Shown here: one piece after another, positions 9,780 through 36,712 of the stretch
Layout: every line of letters starts with the position of its first letter
Numbering within the stretch: the first letter of the stretch is position 1
Source of the DNA: an uncultured Candidatus Saccharibacteria bacterium
Lineage (GTDB): Bacteria > Patescibacteriota > Saccharimonadia > Saccharimonadales > Saccharimonadaceae
Length of the DNA: 54,728 bases
Assembly (NCBI GenBank): GCA_946548715.1
Contig: CAMNPZ010000005.1
Span: 1-54,728, forward strand
Reading direction: 5' to 3'
Notes under the pieces: generated by a model
Told to the model about the DNA's origin: nothing
Database searches by the model: none
Seen by the model: only the letters and a program-made list of their open reading frames with translations
Translations under genes and position numbers: made by a program

Positions 9780-10553
9780 ATGGATTATTTCGAGAAGATT
9801 GAGGGAAATCCGTACGAGGATTTGAGGTGGAACATTCCCGAACACAAACAGGGCACCGTGAATGTGATTGGTGGGAATGCGCAGAGATTCCGAGACGAGG
9901 TTAGAGTTGCAGAGTTCTTAGGGCGAGAGTTCCCGCTCGAGGCCGTACGATTAGTGTTGCCGGATACCCTGAAAGGTAAACTACCAGAGATGCCGAATTT
10001 TGTGTTTATACCATCGTCGGAGTCGGGGTCATTTGCAGAGAGTCAGGAGTTGCTCGATGTATTCAAGATGGCGGACTACAATCTGGTGCTGGGAGACTTA
10101 TCGCGAAATAGCGTGACGGGGCGAGCTGTAGCGAGCGCGTGTCGCGGTGCCGAGAAAATGACCTTGATTACGCGCGACAGCGTTGATTTACTGGCAGACA
10201 ATATGCCGGAACGATGGTTGATGAATGAAAACATCGTTGTGATGGCTTCGGTAGCACAGCTTGCTAAACTGCTGCGATTAGTATATTACCCCAAGATGCT
10301 ACTAATGTCGGCGTCCTTAGTGCAAGTAGCGGAAGTGTTGCACAAATTCACATTGAGCTACCCAGTAGGGATAGTAACTTTACATAATGGGCAGGTCGTA
10401 GTGGCACACGGTGGGACCGTGAAGGCCGTGGCACTATCTGGGTATTCGCCGCTGGCGTTCTGGAGCGGAGAAGTAGCAGCGAAGATTGTGGGGGTAAACC
10501 TATATAATCCGAGCCGGCTAGTTGAGGCGGTAGTCTTGAGCTTGAATAATTAA
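9780..10553 (+). CDS. YjeF C-terminal/NAD(P)H-hydrate dehydratase-like protein
   Basis: A 257-residue protein that resembles the ribokinase-like C-terminal domain of YjeF/NnrD. The N-terminus has GTVNVIGGNAQRF, similar to the glycine-rich start of that fold, and the C-terminus has SGYSPLAFWSGEVAAKIVG. The usual catalytic GTGD near the C-terminus is not evident, so the protein may be a diverged or non-catalytic version. GGAGG in the end of the exonuclease gene drives its start, indicating coupled translation. The repair of damaged NAD(P)HX would be its role if the assignment holds. Confidence in a CDS is high; in the function, moderate to low. Confidence 0.6.
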   Translation: MDYFEKIEGNPYEDLRWNIPEHKQGTVNVIGGNAQRFRDEVRVAEFLGREFPLEAVRLVLPDTLKGKLPEMPNFVFIPSSESGSFAESQELLDVFKMADYNLVLGDLSRNSVTGRAVASACRGAEKMTLITRDSVDLLADNMPERWLMNENIVVMASVAQLAKLLRLVYYPKMLLMSASLVQVAEVLHKFTLSYPVGIVTLHNGQVVVAHGGTVKAVALSGYSPLAFWSGEVAAKIVGVNLYNPSRLVEAVVLSLNN

Positions 10554-10615
10554 TAAGCTCCGATTCGTAGCATCAGAACACATAAAGGGCTTTTATGCCA
10601 TAATAAAATCTATAC

Positions 10616-10644
10616 TTGACATTTTGTAGATTATATGCTATAAT
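10616..10644 (+). promoter_or_regulatory. consensus -35/-10 promoter
   Basis: TTGACA (10616-10621), a 17-nt spacer and TATAAT (10639-10644) with TGC before the -10: a complete housekeeping promoter for the long leader of the 10857 gene. Confidence 0.9.
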
Positions 10645-10700
10645 GCAAGTTATGAGCTATTTATTGGGATAGATGTACTTTAACTTTGTTGGACTATTTG

Positions 10701-10760
10701 ATTGCAGAGTAGTCTCTCCGTGCCGTATGTCGGCCATTGACGGAGGAACTATTCTGCAAT
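10701..10760 (+). ncRNA. structured 5' leader hairpin
   Basis: ATTGCAGAGTAGT pairs with ACTATTCTGCAAT over 13 positions (one G-U), enclosing CTCCGT/ACGGAG and GCCG/CGGC. This gives one 60-nt hairpin about 55 nt after the expected transcription start. A cis-regulatory role is inferred. Confidence 0.6.
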
Positions 10761-10809
10761 CATATACCTAAATACACAAGTCGAGAATAAGGAGGCTCGC
10801 TACGAGGTG

Positions 10810-10857
10810 ATGTTTGTGGAAAAAACTATTCATTTACCACATGGAGGAAAACCGTGA
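10810..10857 (+). CDS. possible 15-aa leader peptide overlapping the regulator start
   Basis: ATG 10810 to TGA 10857 encodes MFVEKTIHLPHGGKP. Its stop overlaps the downstream ATG as TGATG, which would couple translation. The Shine-Dalgarno site of the downstream gene (GGAGG, 10843-10847) lies inside it. An upstream AAGGAGG is about 17 nt away and GAGGTG is only a few nt away. Plausible as a coupling peptide but unproven. Confidence 0.35.
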   Translation: MFVEKTIHLPHGGKP

Positions 10858-11747
10858 TGAAAACGAATATTTGTGGCTCAAAGTTTAACACGCCGGGACA
10901 GAATCTTGCAGCAGCAGTTGAGGGATGCGATCAGGCGATTGGCATTCCGTCGTATAGCTACGACAAGGCTTTGGAGATTCTTTCAACGGCACTTACAACT
11001 GAAGAATTTGACCTGGTCTGTCGTGGATTTGCATTTAACTATCCTCGACACACACAGAAGGAAATTGCTCAAGAATTGGGTGTACCGGAGTTTTACGTCT
11101 CTAAGACAATCCGAAATGCAATAAAAAAGCTGCAGGGTTCGCCTTATCGCGTTCAGCTTCGTGCTCTCATTCCCACCGTCGAAGAGCTCTTTCGTGAGAT
11201 TGAGACGCTTCGAAATGAAACCGTCAATAAGAAAGCATTAAAGGAGTCTCAGTATAGGCTGGAAGAGGCTAAAGCTAAGCTCGCTGCCTCCAATGAAGCT
11301 TTGAAAAAGGCCGAAATGGCTCAAGCTTCGGTCTCTTTCGAGAACGAAAAGCTTACCAAAAAGCTGGCATTATCCAATGCCACTTTGGCCATGACGGAGA
11401 AGCGTGTGACTGAGCTTGTTTTCGAAGCTAAGCGACAAAAAGCTCGTGCTGATGCCGCAAAAGCTTCTTACGACCAGCTCGTTGCAGCTATAAGGAGTAG
11501 CATCGCGGAAAACAACAGAAGCTTTGCTGCAAAAGTGAAGCAGGCTGAAGCAGAAAATGACTCCTTTGAGGCTTTAGGGTTCTCAGAGAAAGAGATTTAC
11601 GCCCTCAGAAGGATCAATTGCACCTCTTTGAAGCAACTTCTCGGGATGACCCCCAGGATGCTCAAGAAGATGGCAGTCGGTGCTGAAAACCTTGCTGGGA
11701 TTCAGAGCAAGCTTGAAGAGCACGGATTCTCACTACGCAAGGAGTAA
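10857..11747 (+). CDS. sigma region 4-like / coiled-coil / alpha-CTD-like DNA-binding protein
   Basis: A 296-residue protein with three parts. Residues about 45-95 resemble sigma-70 region 4: EEFDLVCRGF then TQKEIAQELGVPEFYVSKTIRNAIKKL, a helix-turn-helix. Residues about 105-225 form a long coiled coil of Ala, Glu and Lys heptads. Residues about 236-296 resemble the RNA polymerase alpha C-terminal domain (INCTSLKQLLGMTPRMLKKM, NLAGIQSKLEEHGFSL), which is a helix-hairpin-helix fold. The start is ATG 10857 with GGAGG nine nt upstream. It has a consensus promoter and a structured leader, so it is probably regulated. A role in transcription control is inferred from the domains; such a fusion is not a standard sigma factor because region 2 is absent. 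Confidence 0.75.
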   Translation: MKTNICGSKFNTPGQNLAAAVEGCDQAIGIPSYSYDKALEILSTALTTEEFDLVCRGFAFNYPRHTQKEIAQELGVPEFYVSKTIRNAIKKLQGSPYRVQLRALIPTVEELFREIETLRNETVNKKALKESQYRLEEAKAKLAASNEALKKAEMAQASVSFENEKLTKKLALSNATLAMTEKRVTELVFEAKRQKARADAAKASYDQLVAAIRSSIAENNRSFAAKVKQAEAENDSFEALGFSEKEIYALRRINCTSLKQLLGMTPRMLKKMAVGAENLAGIQSKLEEHGFSLRKE

Positions 11748-11821
11748 GTCTCAAAGCAACTCGTCAAATTCAGGCCTTCGCTGCATAAGACGTAAGGTCT
11801 AACAGTAGGTATTGGTCCAAC

Positions 11822-11855
11822 AAAAAACCACGGGCTCATTCGTCTGTGGTTTTTT
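11822..11855 (+). terminator. intrinsic terminator of the 10857 gene
   Basis: AAAAAACCAC and GTGGTTTTTT flank a 14-nt loop, ending in a T run; the A run makes it work on both strands. Confidence 0.8.
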
Positions 11856-11888
11856 GTCGCCTCGTTACCTTCTAGTCATCATTGGTTT

Positions 11889-11917
11889 TGAAAAACCCGC
11901 CTGTTGTAGGCGGGTTT
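11889..11917 (-). terminator. intrinsic terminator of the 11928-12227 gene
   Basis: AAACCCGCCT/AGGCGGGTTT, a 10-bp stem with a 5-nt loop, followed on the minus strand by a T-rich tail. Confidence 0.85.
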
Positions 11918-11927
11918 GAAGAAAAAA

Positions 11928-12227
11928 CTAATAGGTTGCAGGATTAAGGATCTGCTCATTCATGTATTTTTCAATATCTTTTATGGCTATCTTGGTTGCT
12001 ATTGTTGGGCAATCATGACTATCAATTAAGTCAAGCTTAAGAAGTGTTGCCCTAATAGAGTCGTCCATTCTCACTGGAGCTTTGGAGTTTACTTTGAGTT
12101 CTAGAACGAAATATGCCCTTGGGTTATCCCAGACCAGTTGACTTAGTCGTTGTAACGCTTCAGCCTTTGTGAGATGTTCGACTGGTTGTCCCCCCTTGCG
12201 GTCGAACAAATGAATGATTTTTCCCAT
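11928..12227 (-). CDS. hypothetical protein, 99 aa
   Basis: A small soluble protein with no recognised family. Short strands and helices alternate (MGKIIHLFDRKGGQPVEHLT, then LVWDNPRAYFVLELK). GAGAGGA lies about 9 nt before ATG 12227 and TATAAT on the minus strand near 12279-12284 gives a leader of about 45 nt. It has its own terminator and stands alone between convergent and parallel neighbours. Confidence 0.7.
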   Translation of the reverse strand: MGKIIHLFDRKGGQPVEHLTKAEALQRLSQLVWDNPRAYFVLELKVNSKAPVRMDDSIRATLLKLDLIDSHDCPTIATKIAIKDIEKYMNEQILNPATY

Positions 12228-12336
12228 CTGACGTTTCCTCTCTTTCTAAATGTACTACGACCATTGTGTCGTTTTCATATTATATCATTTTAACTTGCTT
12301 AAGTCAAGGCTATTCTTCGATGTTTTCTTGTGATAG

Positions 12337-13002
12337 TTACTTGCGACGTTGCTGAGTAGGGGCAGGTTTCTTGGACGCCTTCGTGAGTTTTTGCTCAATA
12401 TCGACAGCGTCACGAGAGACGTTTTTGCGGCGCTGGCGGAGAAAAAACCAAATGAAGACAAAGATAGAGCAGCCAAAGGCAAAGAGGCCGTATTTGACGG
12501 GGTCGGGCCAGTTGGTAGCGAAGAGGATGACGGCGTTAACGACGCCGAGGCAGATGGTATAGAGGTAGCGACGGGCGAGGACAATTTTCTTGGCAAGCGG
12601 AAAATTACGGGCGGTAAGTGAGTTCTTGGTGCAATTGTCGGGGTGACCGAAGAGTTTGCCGTAGAGGATTAGTTCAAGCGAACCGCAGATGACGGTGTAA
12701 TAGAGAATAACAATGAGCCCCACAATCCAGTTGACGCGAAGAGCACAGAATAGAACTTGGCCAGCGGCGAGCAAAACATCCGAGACTATATCAAACTGGG
12801 CGGCGTATTTGCGATATTTTGGCGTCTTATCCTTCGGGAAAGGCCATTTACGAGCGCAAGTGCCGTCGAAAGTATCGGTCAGCTCGGCAGTAAGAAAAAT
12901 GATAAAGGCTTGCTCTGGCGTACCACCAGTAAAACTGATTGCAATTAGAATTAGGCTTAAGATTAATCTGGTTAGAGTTAAAATGTCTGCTAAATATCTC
13001 AT
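12337..13002 (-). CDS. CDP-alcohol phosphatidyltransferase family protein
   Basis: A 221-residue membrane enzyme that transfers a phosphatidyl group from CDP-diacylglycerol to an alcohol. The signature is DTFDGTCAR near residues 42-50, followed by FDIVSD; the canonical motif is DxxDGxxAR...GxxxDxxxD. Here the middle Gly appears as Ala and the spacer is longer than usual, so the acceptor cannot be told from sequence. About five to six hydrophobic helices follow. The C-terminus is basic (KKPAPTQQRRK). The start is ATG 13002 directly after a -10 box. It follows the glycosyltransferase gene by 36 nt, suggesting a membrane lipid or glycolipid unit. Confidence 0.8.
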   Translation of the reverse strand: MRYLADILTLTRLILSLILIAISFTGGTPEQAFIIFLTAELTDTFDGTCARKWPFPKDKTPKYRKYAAQFDIVSDVLLAAGQVLFCALRVNWIVGLIVILYYTVICGSLELILYGKLFGHPDNCTKNSLTARNFPLAKKIVLARRYLYTICLGVVNAVILFATNWPDPVKYGLFAFGCSIFVFIWFFLRQRRKNVSRDAVDIEQKLTKASKKPAPTQQRRK

Positions 13003-14365: not shown

Positions 14366-14467
14366 ATATCAAGAAGGAGCGAGGGAGCGGCCCGGTGACC
14401 TCCTGCCAACCTAGCACGCCAAGACGGCGAGCCAAGGTGGTAAATCCGACCAGAAAGGAAAGATATG
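14366..14467 (+). promoter_or_regulatory. SAM-I (S-box) riboswitch of metK, translational type
   Basis: The leader carries the S-box core in order: ATCAAGAAGGAGCGAGGGA, GGCCCGGTGA, CC-TGCCAACC, then GGTGGTAAATCCGACCAGAAAGGAAAGAT. P1 pairs ATATC (14366-14370) with GATAT (14462-14466). The 3' strand of P1 therefore includes the first two bases of the metK ATG (14465) and abuts the GGAAAGA ribosome-binding site. SAM binding should thus hide the start and block translation. No terminator hairpin is present. The promoter is TACAAT at 14342-14347. Confidence 0.88.
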
Positions 14468-15508
14468 TTCTATCGAACTGCGGAGAGCGTTTCTCCGAAA
14501 CACCCAGACAAATTATGTGACCAAATTAGCGATGCGATTTTGGACGCATATCTTAAAGAGGACCCAAATGCGCGCGTGGCGGCCGAGGCTTGTGGCGGAC
14601 ACGGCGTAGTATTCGTAACTGGCGAAATTACGTCGACGGCTGGCGAGGTTGACATTCCCGCCATCGTGCATCGTATCGCTGGCGATGACATGGAAGTACA
14701 CACGAAAATCGTCAAACAATCGCCCGAAATCGCTGCGGGGGTAGATACCGGCGGGGCTGGCGACCAGGGAATCATGATTGGTTATGCTTGCGATGAAACA
14801 CCGGAAATGTTGCCGCGCGAAGTGGTTTTGTCGAGAAGGCTAAATCAGTTCATTTACGAGAAACACCCGTATGATGGTAAGACCCAGGTCACGATTGCGC
14901 CAGATGGGTCGATTGATTCTATCGTAGTAAGCTTCCAAAACGTATCATCGAAGGAACTGTCCCATTTGGTGTCCGAATGGCTGGATACCGAAGGAGTCCT
15001 GGAAAAACAGCAGGTTACGATGCTATCAAAAAGAATCCTGGATGAGCCTGAGGAGTTTGAATTATTGACAAAAAATAACGATTCAATTATTGCGTATATT
15101 AACCCAGCTGGCGACTGGAATCAGGGTGGATTTGAAGCCGATACCGGCCTGACTGGTCGTAAGTTAATCGTGGATAATTACGGTCCACGCGTAGCTATTG
15201 GCGGTGGCTGTTACTCAGGCAAGGATCCGTCCAAGGTAGATCGTTCAGCGGCTTACATGGCACGCAGGATAGCAGTGGACTATCTGCGCAACCGCAAAGC
15301 ACACGAAGTACTAGTGCGACTGGCTTACGCGATTGGCTATGCTGAGCCACTAGAGAAAACCGTGATTATCGATGGTAAGCCAGAGGAAATTAATGGATAC
15401 GATTTAACCCCAAATGGCATCATTAAACATTTGAACCTGAAACGCCCGATTTACGAGGCGACCGCGCGCTACGGTCACTACGGCGAAGGATTCGACTGGG
15501 ATAAATAA
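14465..15508 (+). CDS. metK: S-adenosylmethionine synthetase
   Basis: A 347-residue MetK that makes SAM from methionine and ATP. The N-terminus has ESVSPKHPDKLCDQISDA (ATP-binding His and Asp). GAGDQGIMIGYA is the methionine-site hexapeptide region. The P-loop-like segment is GGGCYSGKDPSKVDRSAAYM. It is some 35 residues shorter than the Escherichia coli enzyme, through trimmed loops. The riboswitch upstream gives feedback by the product. It ends with a strong terminator and is monocistronic. Confidence 0.96.
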   Translation: MFYRTAESVSPKHPDKLCDQISDAILDAYLKEDPNARVAAEACGGHGVVFVTGEITSTAGEVDIPAIVHRIAGDDMEVHTKIVKQSPEIAAGVDTGGAGDQGIMIGYACDETPEMLPREVVLSRRLNQFIYEKHPYDGKTQVTIAPDGSIDSIVVSFQNVSSKELSHLVSEWLDTEGVLEKQQVTMLSKRILDEPEEFELLTKNNDSIIAYINPAGDWNQGGFEADTGLTGRKLIVDNYGPRVAIGGGCYSGKDPSKVDRSAAYMARRIAVDYLRNRKAHEVLVRLAYAIGYAEPLEKTVIIDGKPEEINGYDLTPNGIIKHLNLKRPIYEATARYGHYGEGFDWDK

Positions 15509-35671: not shown

Positions 35672-36712
35672 ATGGAGCAAAATGCGGAAACTCTCAAAAA
35701 AGCAATCTCCGGAAGCCTGAAAATTATTGAGCAAGAGCGCGAAAGAGAAATCATTACCCGACGTTTCGGACTAAAAGGCCAAAGAGAAACACTTGAACAG
35801 ATTGGTGAAATGCTATCTATTACGCGTGAGAGAGTACGCCAGCTCGAAAAAGCAATCTTGATTCGCCTTCAAATTTCCGCAGAAGAGAACCAAATCCCCG
35901 AGCTTGCTGCCGCCGAAAAACTACTAGTGCGCAACCTTACCGAGATGGGCCGCGTAGCAAAGCTTTCCAGCATTGCAGACAAAGTATACGGCAGGAAGAC
36001 CAGCTCCTCTGAAAGAATGGGGATTTATTTTATCGCAACTTTCGCTAAGAATCTGACTATCGTTGAAGAAAATGACAAATATTATGCTGCGATTGGTATA
36101 GCAGAATACGGCAATAGCCGTACGATACGTGAGCGGGTAGATGCAATAGTTGGCATTATCAAGGCCAACAAGCAACCGATGACTATTGATGAGCTTGACG
36201 AGAAACTAGATTACGAACACCCGGATCACATTAAGGCCATAGCGTCGGTTTCAAAACTCCTCGCAACATTAAACAATGTATGGGGACTAGCCAAATGGCC
36301 AGCCGTAAACCCTAAAAACATTCGCGATAAGATTTACGTTATTCTCGAGGCAAAGAAAGAGCCGATGCATTTTTCCGATATTGCGAAGGCGATTAAAGAA
36401 TCTAGTTTCAAACGCCGCAATGTCACAGTGCAGGCAATTCATAATGAACTAATTAAGGATTCCCGTTACGTTCTCATTGGTCGCGGAATCTATGCTCTAT
36501 CGTCATGGGGGTACAAGAAGGGAACTATTTCCGATATTATTAATTCTATTTTAGCAAAATCAGAAAAACCATTAACCAGAGAGGAAATCGTCAAACAAGT
36601 CCTCAAGGTTCGTAAGGTTAAGGAAACTACGATTCTCCTTAATTTGCAGAATAAAAAACTCTTCAAGAAAACAGGGAAAAACGCCTACACTTTGGCCGAT
36701 ATTCAAAAATAA
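35672..36712 (+). CDS. sigma region 4 / HARE-HTH fusion regulator
   Basis: A 346-residue DNA-binding protein. The N-terminus is a clear sigma-70 region 4: REREIITRRFGLKGQRETLE then QIGEMLSITRERVRQLEKAI. Regions 2 and 3 are absent. The rest holds two or more winged-helix segments of the HARE-HTH/RpoE-delta type, for example RDKIYVILEAKKEPMHFSDI and ALIGRGIYALSSWG-like ends (VLIGRGIYALSSWGY). Such proteins could bind RNA polymerase through the region 4-like part. AAGGA precedes the ATG and the promoter carries TTGACA. It could be an accessory transcription factor common in this lineage; the function is inferred. Confidence 0.8.
   Translation: MEQNAETLKKAISGSLKIIEQEREREIITRRFGLKGQRETLEQIGEMLSITRERVRQLEKAILIRLQISAEENQIPELAAAEKLLVRNLTEMGRVAKLSSIADKVYGRKTSSSERMGIYFIATFAKNLTIVEENDKYYAAIGIAEYGNSRTIRERVDAIVGIIKANKQPMTIDELDEKLDYEHPDHIKAIASVSKLLATLNNVWGLAKWPAVNPKNIRDKIYVILEAKKEPMHFSDIAKAIKESSFKRRNVTVQAIHNELIKDSRYVLIGRGIYALSSWGYKKGTISDIINSILAKSEKPLTREEIVKQVLKVRKVKETTILLNLQNKKLFKKTGKNAYTLADIQK

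Follow-up and report, generated by a model that had tools for sequence, protein, structure and literature searches.

The window, by which we mean the whole 54,728-nucleotide stretch of Candidatus Saccharibacteria DNA analyzed here, contains an inserted pair of convergent genes, of which the larger encodes a protein that combines a sigma region 4-like domain, a predicted long helix, and a domain similar to the C-terminal domain of the RNA polymerase alpha subunit (alpha-CTD). The features of this locus are as follows.

10554-12336, no strand assigned: insertion that forms a cassette of two genes; its limits are approximate and are set by the stops of the genes on either side
10616-10644, plus strand: near-perfect sigma-70 promoter, TTGACA-17-TATAAT, extended -10
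10662-10787, plus strand: leader element of the R1 covariance model, with the GTACTTTAAC motif, a hairpin, and the CCTAAATA motif
10699-10762, plus strand: long 5' leader hairpin with the arms TGATTGCAGAGTAG / CTATTCTGCAATCA, single copy in its genome
10857-11747, plus strand: sigma region 4 / long helix / alpha-CTD-like gene, 296 amino acids from ATG 10857
10857-10946, plus strand: N-terminal family motif (NICG...TPGQNL...GIP), residues 1 to 30, conserved in the 15-member alignment A4
10947-11171, plus strand: sigma region 4-like domain, residues 31 to 105 (Pfam, PDB profile match, structural alignment)
11178-11555, plus strand: predicted single long helix or coiled coil, residues 108 to 233 (AlphaFold2 model)
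11559-11744, plus strand: alpha-CTD-like domain, residues 235 to 296 (profile, Foldseek, structural alignment)
11928-12227, minus strand: partner gene, 99 amino acids, predicted helical bundle, convergent to the family gene
12279-12307, minus strand: promoter of the partner gene, TTGACT-17-TATAAT, extended -10

An alternative start of the larger gene, GTG 10854, would give 297 amino acids. Relatives collected by homology search share 21 to 35% identity with the window protein over the alignment; the named relatives of family loci belong to Candidatus Saccharibacteria from roe deer omasum and other metagenomes. When 174 genomes of one Saccharibacteria genus were searched with a profile of nine homologues (A1), 15 yielded a full-length family member, with one per genome. 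The L010 match was rejected as a chance match in a prfA region. Pairs of closer homologues have dN/dS values of 0.11 to 0.19, and the family gene is therefore real and under purifying selection.

The assignment of the two terminal domains is based on several types of data. (i) Pfam Sigma70_r4 matched the window protein above the cut-off (E 3.3e-6, residues 59 to 94), and RNA_pol_A_CTD gave a suggestive match below it (E 0.02); since the latter is weak for a single protein, it was tested with the family profile. (ii) The C-terminal columns of this profile retrieved RpoA, and the N-terminal columns sigma factors, in almost all genomes of the genus, at E values of about 1e-6. The C-terminal-column matches in nearly all other genomes of the genus were ORFs of about 316 to 329 amino acids, and the examples inspected were full RpoA ORFs and, for the N-terminal columns, RpoD ORFs. 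(iii) The 15-member profile A4 matched alpha-CTD best in the PDB (1doq, E 7.2e-8) and also sigma-A region 4 (4g6d, E 0.0045). (iv) AlphaFold2, run with A4 on the window protein, returned a model with a mean pLDDT of 89.6 and a pTM of 0.43, a value expected because the two domains sit on a long helix. The model shows N-terminal helices at residues 32-45, 48-58, 67-74, 78-94, and 97-103, one central helix of 126 residues (108-233), and the four alpha-CTD helices at 244-252, 258-262, 266-271, and 276-288. (v) Foldseek searches with the model placed alpha-CTD and sigma region 4 in the top rows. With VIA-align 2, alpha-CTD structures aligned to residues 235 to 296 with Z scores of up to 10.5 (1.5 Å over 61 residues), superposing at about 1.5 to 2 Å, and sigma region 4 aligned to residues 31 to 105 with a Z score of 9.5 (1.6 Å over 74 residues). 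As modeled, the window protein is thus a sigma region 4 fold, a long helix, and an alpha-CTD fold joined in one chain.

An earlier note on this DNA had read 10857-11747 as a fusion of sigma4 and alpha-CTD-like modules, normally found on separate polymerase subunits, through a long coiled coil. The fusion is borne out by Pfam, the family and PDB profiles, and AlphaFold2, which also predicts the joining helix, and the alpha-CTD fold, with whose absence from a predicted structure that claim was to fall, is present at the C terminus. The coiled coil holds in part: the helix is long and its heptad period of 3.5 residues is strong in most relatives, but it is weak in the window protein.

Family members were aligned with Escherichia coli RpoA and RpoD to inspect the residues that contact promoters. 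In all 15 members, a K, N, E, G, or D takes the place of alpha R265, and none has an equivalent of the sigma residues R584, E585, and Q589, which contact the -35 element; the RpoA and RpoD of the genus itself retain R265, N268, R584, E585, and Q589. Residues 31 to 105 share fold and sequence similarity with region 4 of RpoD/SigA (PF04545), but R562 is likewise missing in 15/15 members, and searches of the window protein for sigma region 2 with Pfam, NCBIfam, and structure found region 4 only. Residues 235 to 296 have the four-helix fold of alpha-CTD (PF03118) and are homologous to it in sequence, but the family protein lacks the alpha N-terminal domain and the determinant for UP DNA at position 265, and the domain is borne on a long helix. 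Since the residues for -35 and UP contacts are absent, the protein is neither a sigma factor nor a classical promoter reader. The helix-turn-helix region is basic in all members (+1 to +8), which makes nucleic acid binding plausible, though not of the canonical kind.

A near-perfect promoter of the TTGACW-17-TATAAT type precedes all 15 family genes and is followed by a leader of roughly 200 nucleotides. In 14 of the 15 members (all except L008), a long hairpin lies between promoter and start codon, always with unchanged orientation and comparable spacing, and with one hairpin per cassette. The window leader has a folding z score of -3.9. RNAalifold predicted 18 pairs for 13 aligned leaders, of which 15 show at least one compensatory double change. 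Pairing amounted to 94% in the leaders, compared to 81% in shuffled and 32 to 44% in slid alignments, and the covariation score was 0.539 versus 0.267 after shuffling, a value reached by none of 500 shuffles; sequence relatedness inflates such counts, yet the slid controls, which keep this relatedness, stay far lower. The R1 covariance model, run with a filter that can lose weak matches, matched 13 of the 174 genomes, always at the family locus. No Rfam 15 family matched the hairpin at the gathering score, and the search of the window returned two tRNAs and a SAM riboswitch only. The latter (RF00162; 14363-14469, plus strand) lies directly upstream of the S-adenosylmethionine synthetase gene at 14465-15508.

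The position in the transcribed leader, pairing that in several members continues through unalignable but self-complementary sequence towards a small loop at the apex, and a widely varying loop length are evidence for an RNA rather than a DNA palindrome. The G-U test does not settle this point, since the share of G-U among non-Watson-Crick pairs is only weakly enriched (0.54 to 0.60 versus 0.43 to 0.46 in shuffled alignments). Both arms carry the same conserved core. In the genome of the window, exact matches to the arm half-site are confined to the two arms, none occurs elsewhere with one mismatch, and the number of matches with two mismatches is close to the control. The idea of a regulon was rejected on this search, and the lack of half-sites elsewhere in this genome favors a role in cis. 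A leader peptide was also considered and rejected; short ORFs with a ribosome site occur in a few leaders and are not conserved.

Five relatives without the cassette have the two genes that flank the locus (9780-10553 and 12337-13002) immediately next to each other, and 10554-12336 is thus an insertion. Across the members, the family gene is inserted at several fixed sites. At the window site, next to the CDP-alcohol phosphatidyltransferase gene, the unknown genes that are present differ in other genomes (L075, 11-1495; L003, 154-1185); a gene for 494 amino acids is found at this site in G001 and an extra gene for 343 amino acids in G251, which makes it an insertion hot spot.

Family and partner genes each have their own strong promoter. 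In seven genomes the window-type partner adjoins the family gene, and apart from these loci the 174 genomes contain no strong match to it. Two weak relatives lie away from the family gene, beside unrelated proteins of 420 to 450 amino acids (L070, 37-1908; L071, 1414-3049), possibly as another cassette type with the same partner. At the fusA-tuf site, the small neighbor of six other members is of another kind and divergently oriented (alignment A5), and two further members have a third kind (alignment A6); profile comparison showed that the three partner families are mutually unrelated. AlphaFold2 predicted a four-helix arrangement for the first partner (pLDDT about 93 to 96 over residues 21 to 90), for which a comparison with the PDB gave no convincing match.

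Sequence identities of cassettes and flanks are discordant in both directions. Between the window and L003, which share the same site, the flank is 85.5% identical, compared to 35.5% for the family protein and 32.3% for the partner, and the corresponding values for L004 and L005 are 82.5, 27.4, and 31.3%. The reverse pattern was observed for L005 and L015, with 85.8% for the flanking dinB, 96.0% for the family protein, and 98.0% for the partner. These data indicate that whole alleles have been replaced between genomes, most simply, as we infer, by horizontal exchange.

The reading that we favor, with a probability of roughly 0.4, is that the gene encodes an accessory regulator and that its leader hairpin controls its expression, plausibly with the gene's own product acting there. 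Such a regulator would be confined to one Saccharibacteria genus and would travel with its partner gene in a cassette subject to horizontal exchange. The protein would be an elongated, probably dimeric rod whose head, a basic helix-turn-helix, derives from sigma region 4 and whose foot derives from the polymerase alpha-CTD; both retain their folds, and neither retains the residues for -35 and UP recognition. The strong housekeeping promoter would drive a roughly 200-nucleotide leader with the long conserved hairpin, through which expression is most likely set; protein or partner may plausibly bind this hairpin, and the protein may contact polymerase. The lack of a hairpin in L008, the weak G-U enrichment, and the weak heptad pattern of the window protein speak against this reading. 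An extension of it, which we put forward tentatively and regard as rather improbable, is a new kind of ribonucleoprotein control cassette in which a rod of decommissioned modules would recognize its own leader hairpin, with interchangeable partners, as an exchanged conflict or regulatory system. Both promoter-reading add-ons of bacterial polymerase, sigma region 4 and alpha-CTD, have here been brought together in a single accessory protein and have lost their DNA contacts, and this in bacteria whose genomes are very small. The leader adds a structured element absent from Rfam 15 and tied to one gene, which allows a direct bind or no-bind test of what the repurposed modules recognize.

The main rival to the accessory regulator is a conflict system, in which protein and partner would form an effector-control pair acting on polymerase or transcription, with the hairpin RNA as sensor or brake. 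We consider this explanation rather unlikely, although it would account for the patchy presence (15/174 genomes), the insertion at several fixed sites, the very divergent alleles with recent swaps, the interchangeability of unrelated partners, and the strong promoter on each gene; if true, it would be a conflict system built from transcription parts. It is opposed by the lack of an enzymatic domain, by a partner fold without a match, and by the absence of family relatives from phage, plasmid, and IMG/VR collections. The PADLOC defense models gave only weak coiled-coil matches, which were taken as noise, and PHROGs and PADLOC searches with the window protein returned such noise or plain sigma4 matches.

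That the arms are half-sites of a DNA palindrome, to which the dimeric helix-turn-helix protein binds so that polymerase is stopped beyond the promoter and the gene is repressed by its own product, appears to be quite improbable. The basic helix-turn-helix region and the core common to both arms fit an operator of this kind, and co-change of the arms would also be expected if one protein reads both. However, a hairpin of 18 or more contiguous pairs exceeds what one helix-turn-helix reads, and an operator would not explain pairing that runs towards a small apical loop, nor the wide variation in loop length. We hold it to be very improbable that the protein mimics polymerase and bridges a -35-like and an UP-like site, as proposed in the earlier note. 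Both modules do have the right folds, but this proposal is not supported because not one of the 15 members has the known contacts of sigma (R584/E585/Q589) or of alpha (R265); moreover, at a helix rise of 1.5 Å per residue, a straight helix puts the rod ends about 19 nm apart, far beyond the spacing from -35 to UP. A hairpin serving cassette movement, as a recombination or single-strand site, instead of expression is hardly tenable: the cassette does move in effect and the inverted repeat is strong, but its one copy lies inside the cassette and not at the ends, always between promoter and gene, in constant orientation and at a similar distance.

The cassette may represent an unknown type of regulator or conflict system, given that no characterized relative was found. 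The earlier note knew of no characterized protein of this form and suggested a search for the domain pair in the CPR. This view holds in part: no characterized sigma4-alphaCTD example emerged from the literature searched, most subscription papers lying outside its reach, but the bare pair is not unique to the window family, since fusions occur elsewhere in genus and phylum. In the same genus, L041, L042, L043, L044, L048, and L049 carry both domains, and among 59 genomes sampled from the phylum as a whole, two have an ORF matched by both Pfam models (G563, 467 amino acids; G560, 348 amino acids). Like the window family, the uncharacterized fusions L041 to L044, L048, G560, and G563 have sigma4 before alphaCTD in one chain; unlike it, they mostly keep the canonical contacts, have no R1 hairpin, and, as far as examples were inspected, join the domains by short linkers. 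The fusions of the genus, whose contact residues are mostly canonical, may be genuine promoter readers. L049 has two alpha-CTDs, one sigma4, and a weak HARE-HTH match. The sigma4-like part of MzaA of the MZA anti-phage system (NF041931) matches L043, L044, and L048, whereas the window protein is not among the matches listed. A relative in another genus (L059, 1300-2180) is located beside nusG and rplK; two in-frame stops break its reading frame, and its alpha-CTD part retains R265, N268, and C269. About 60 to 170 nucleotides upstream of position 789, the leader of L042 contains the 'GTACTTTAA' motif, as in family leaders, without the R1 hairpin. The window itself encodes, at 35672-36712 on the plus strand, a protein of 346 amino acids (relative L046) that combines sigma region 4 (E 7e-11) with HARE-HTH (E 5e-8), a domain combination that is delta-subunit-like.
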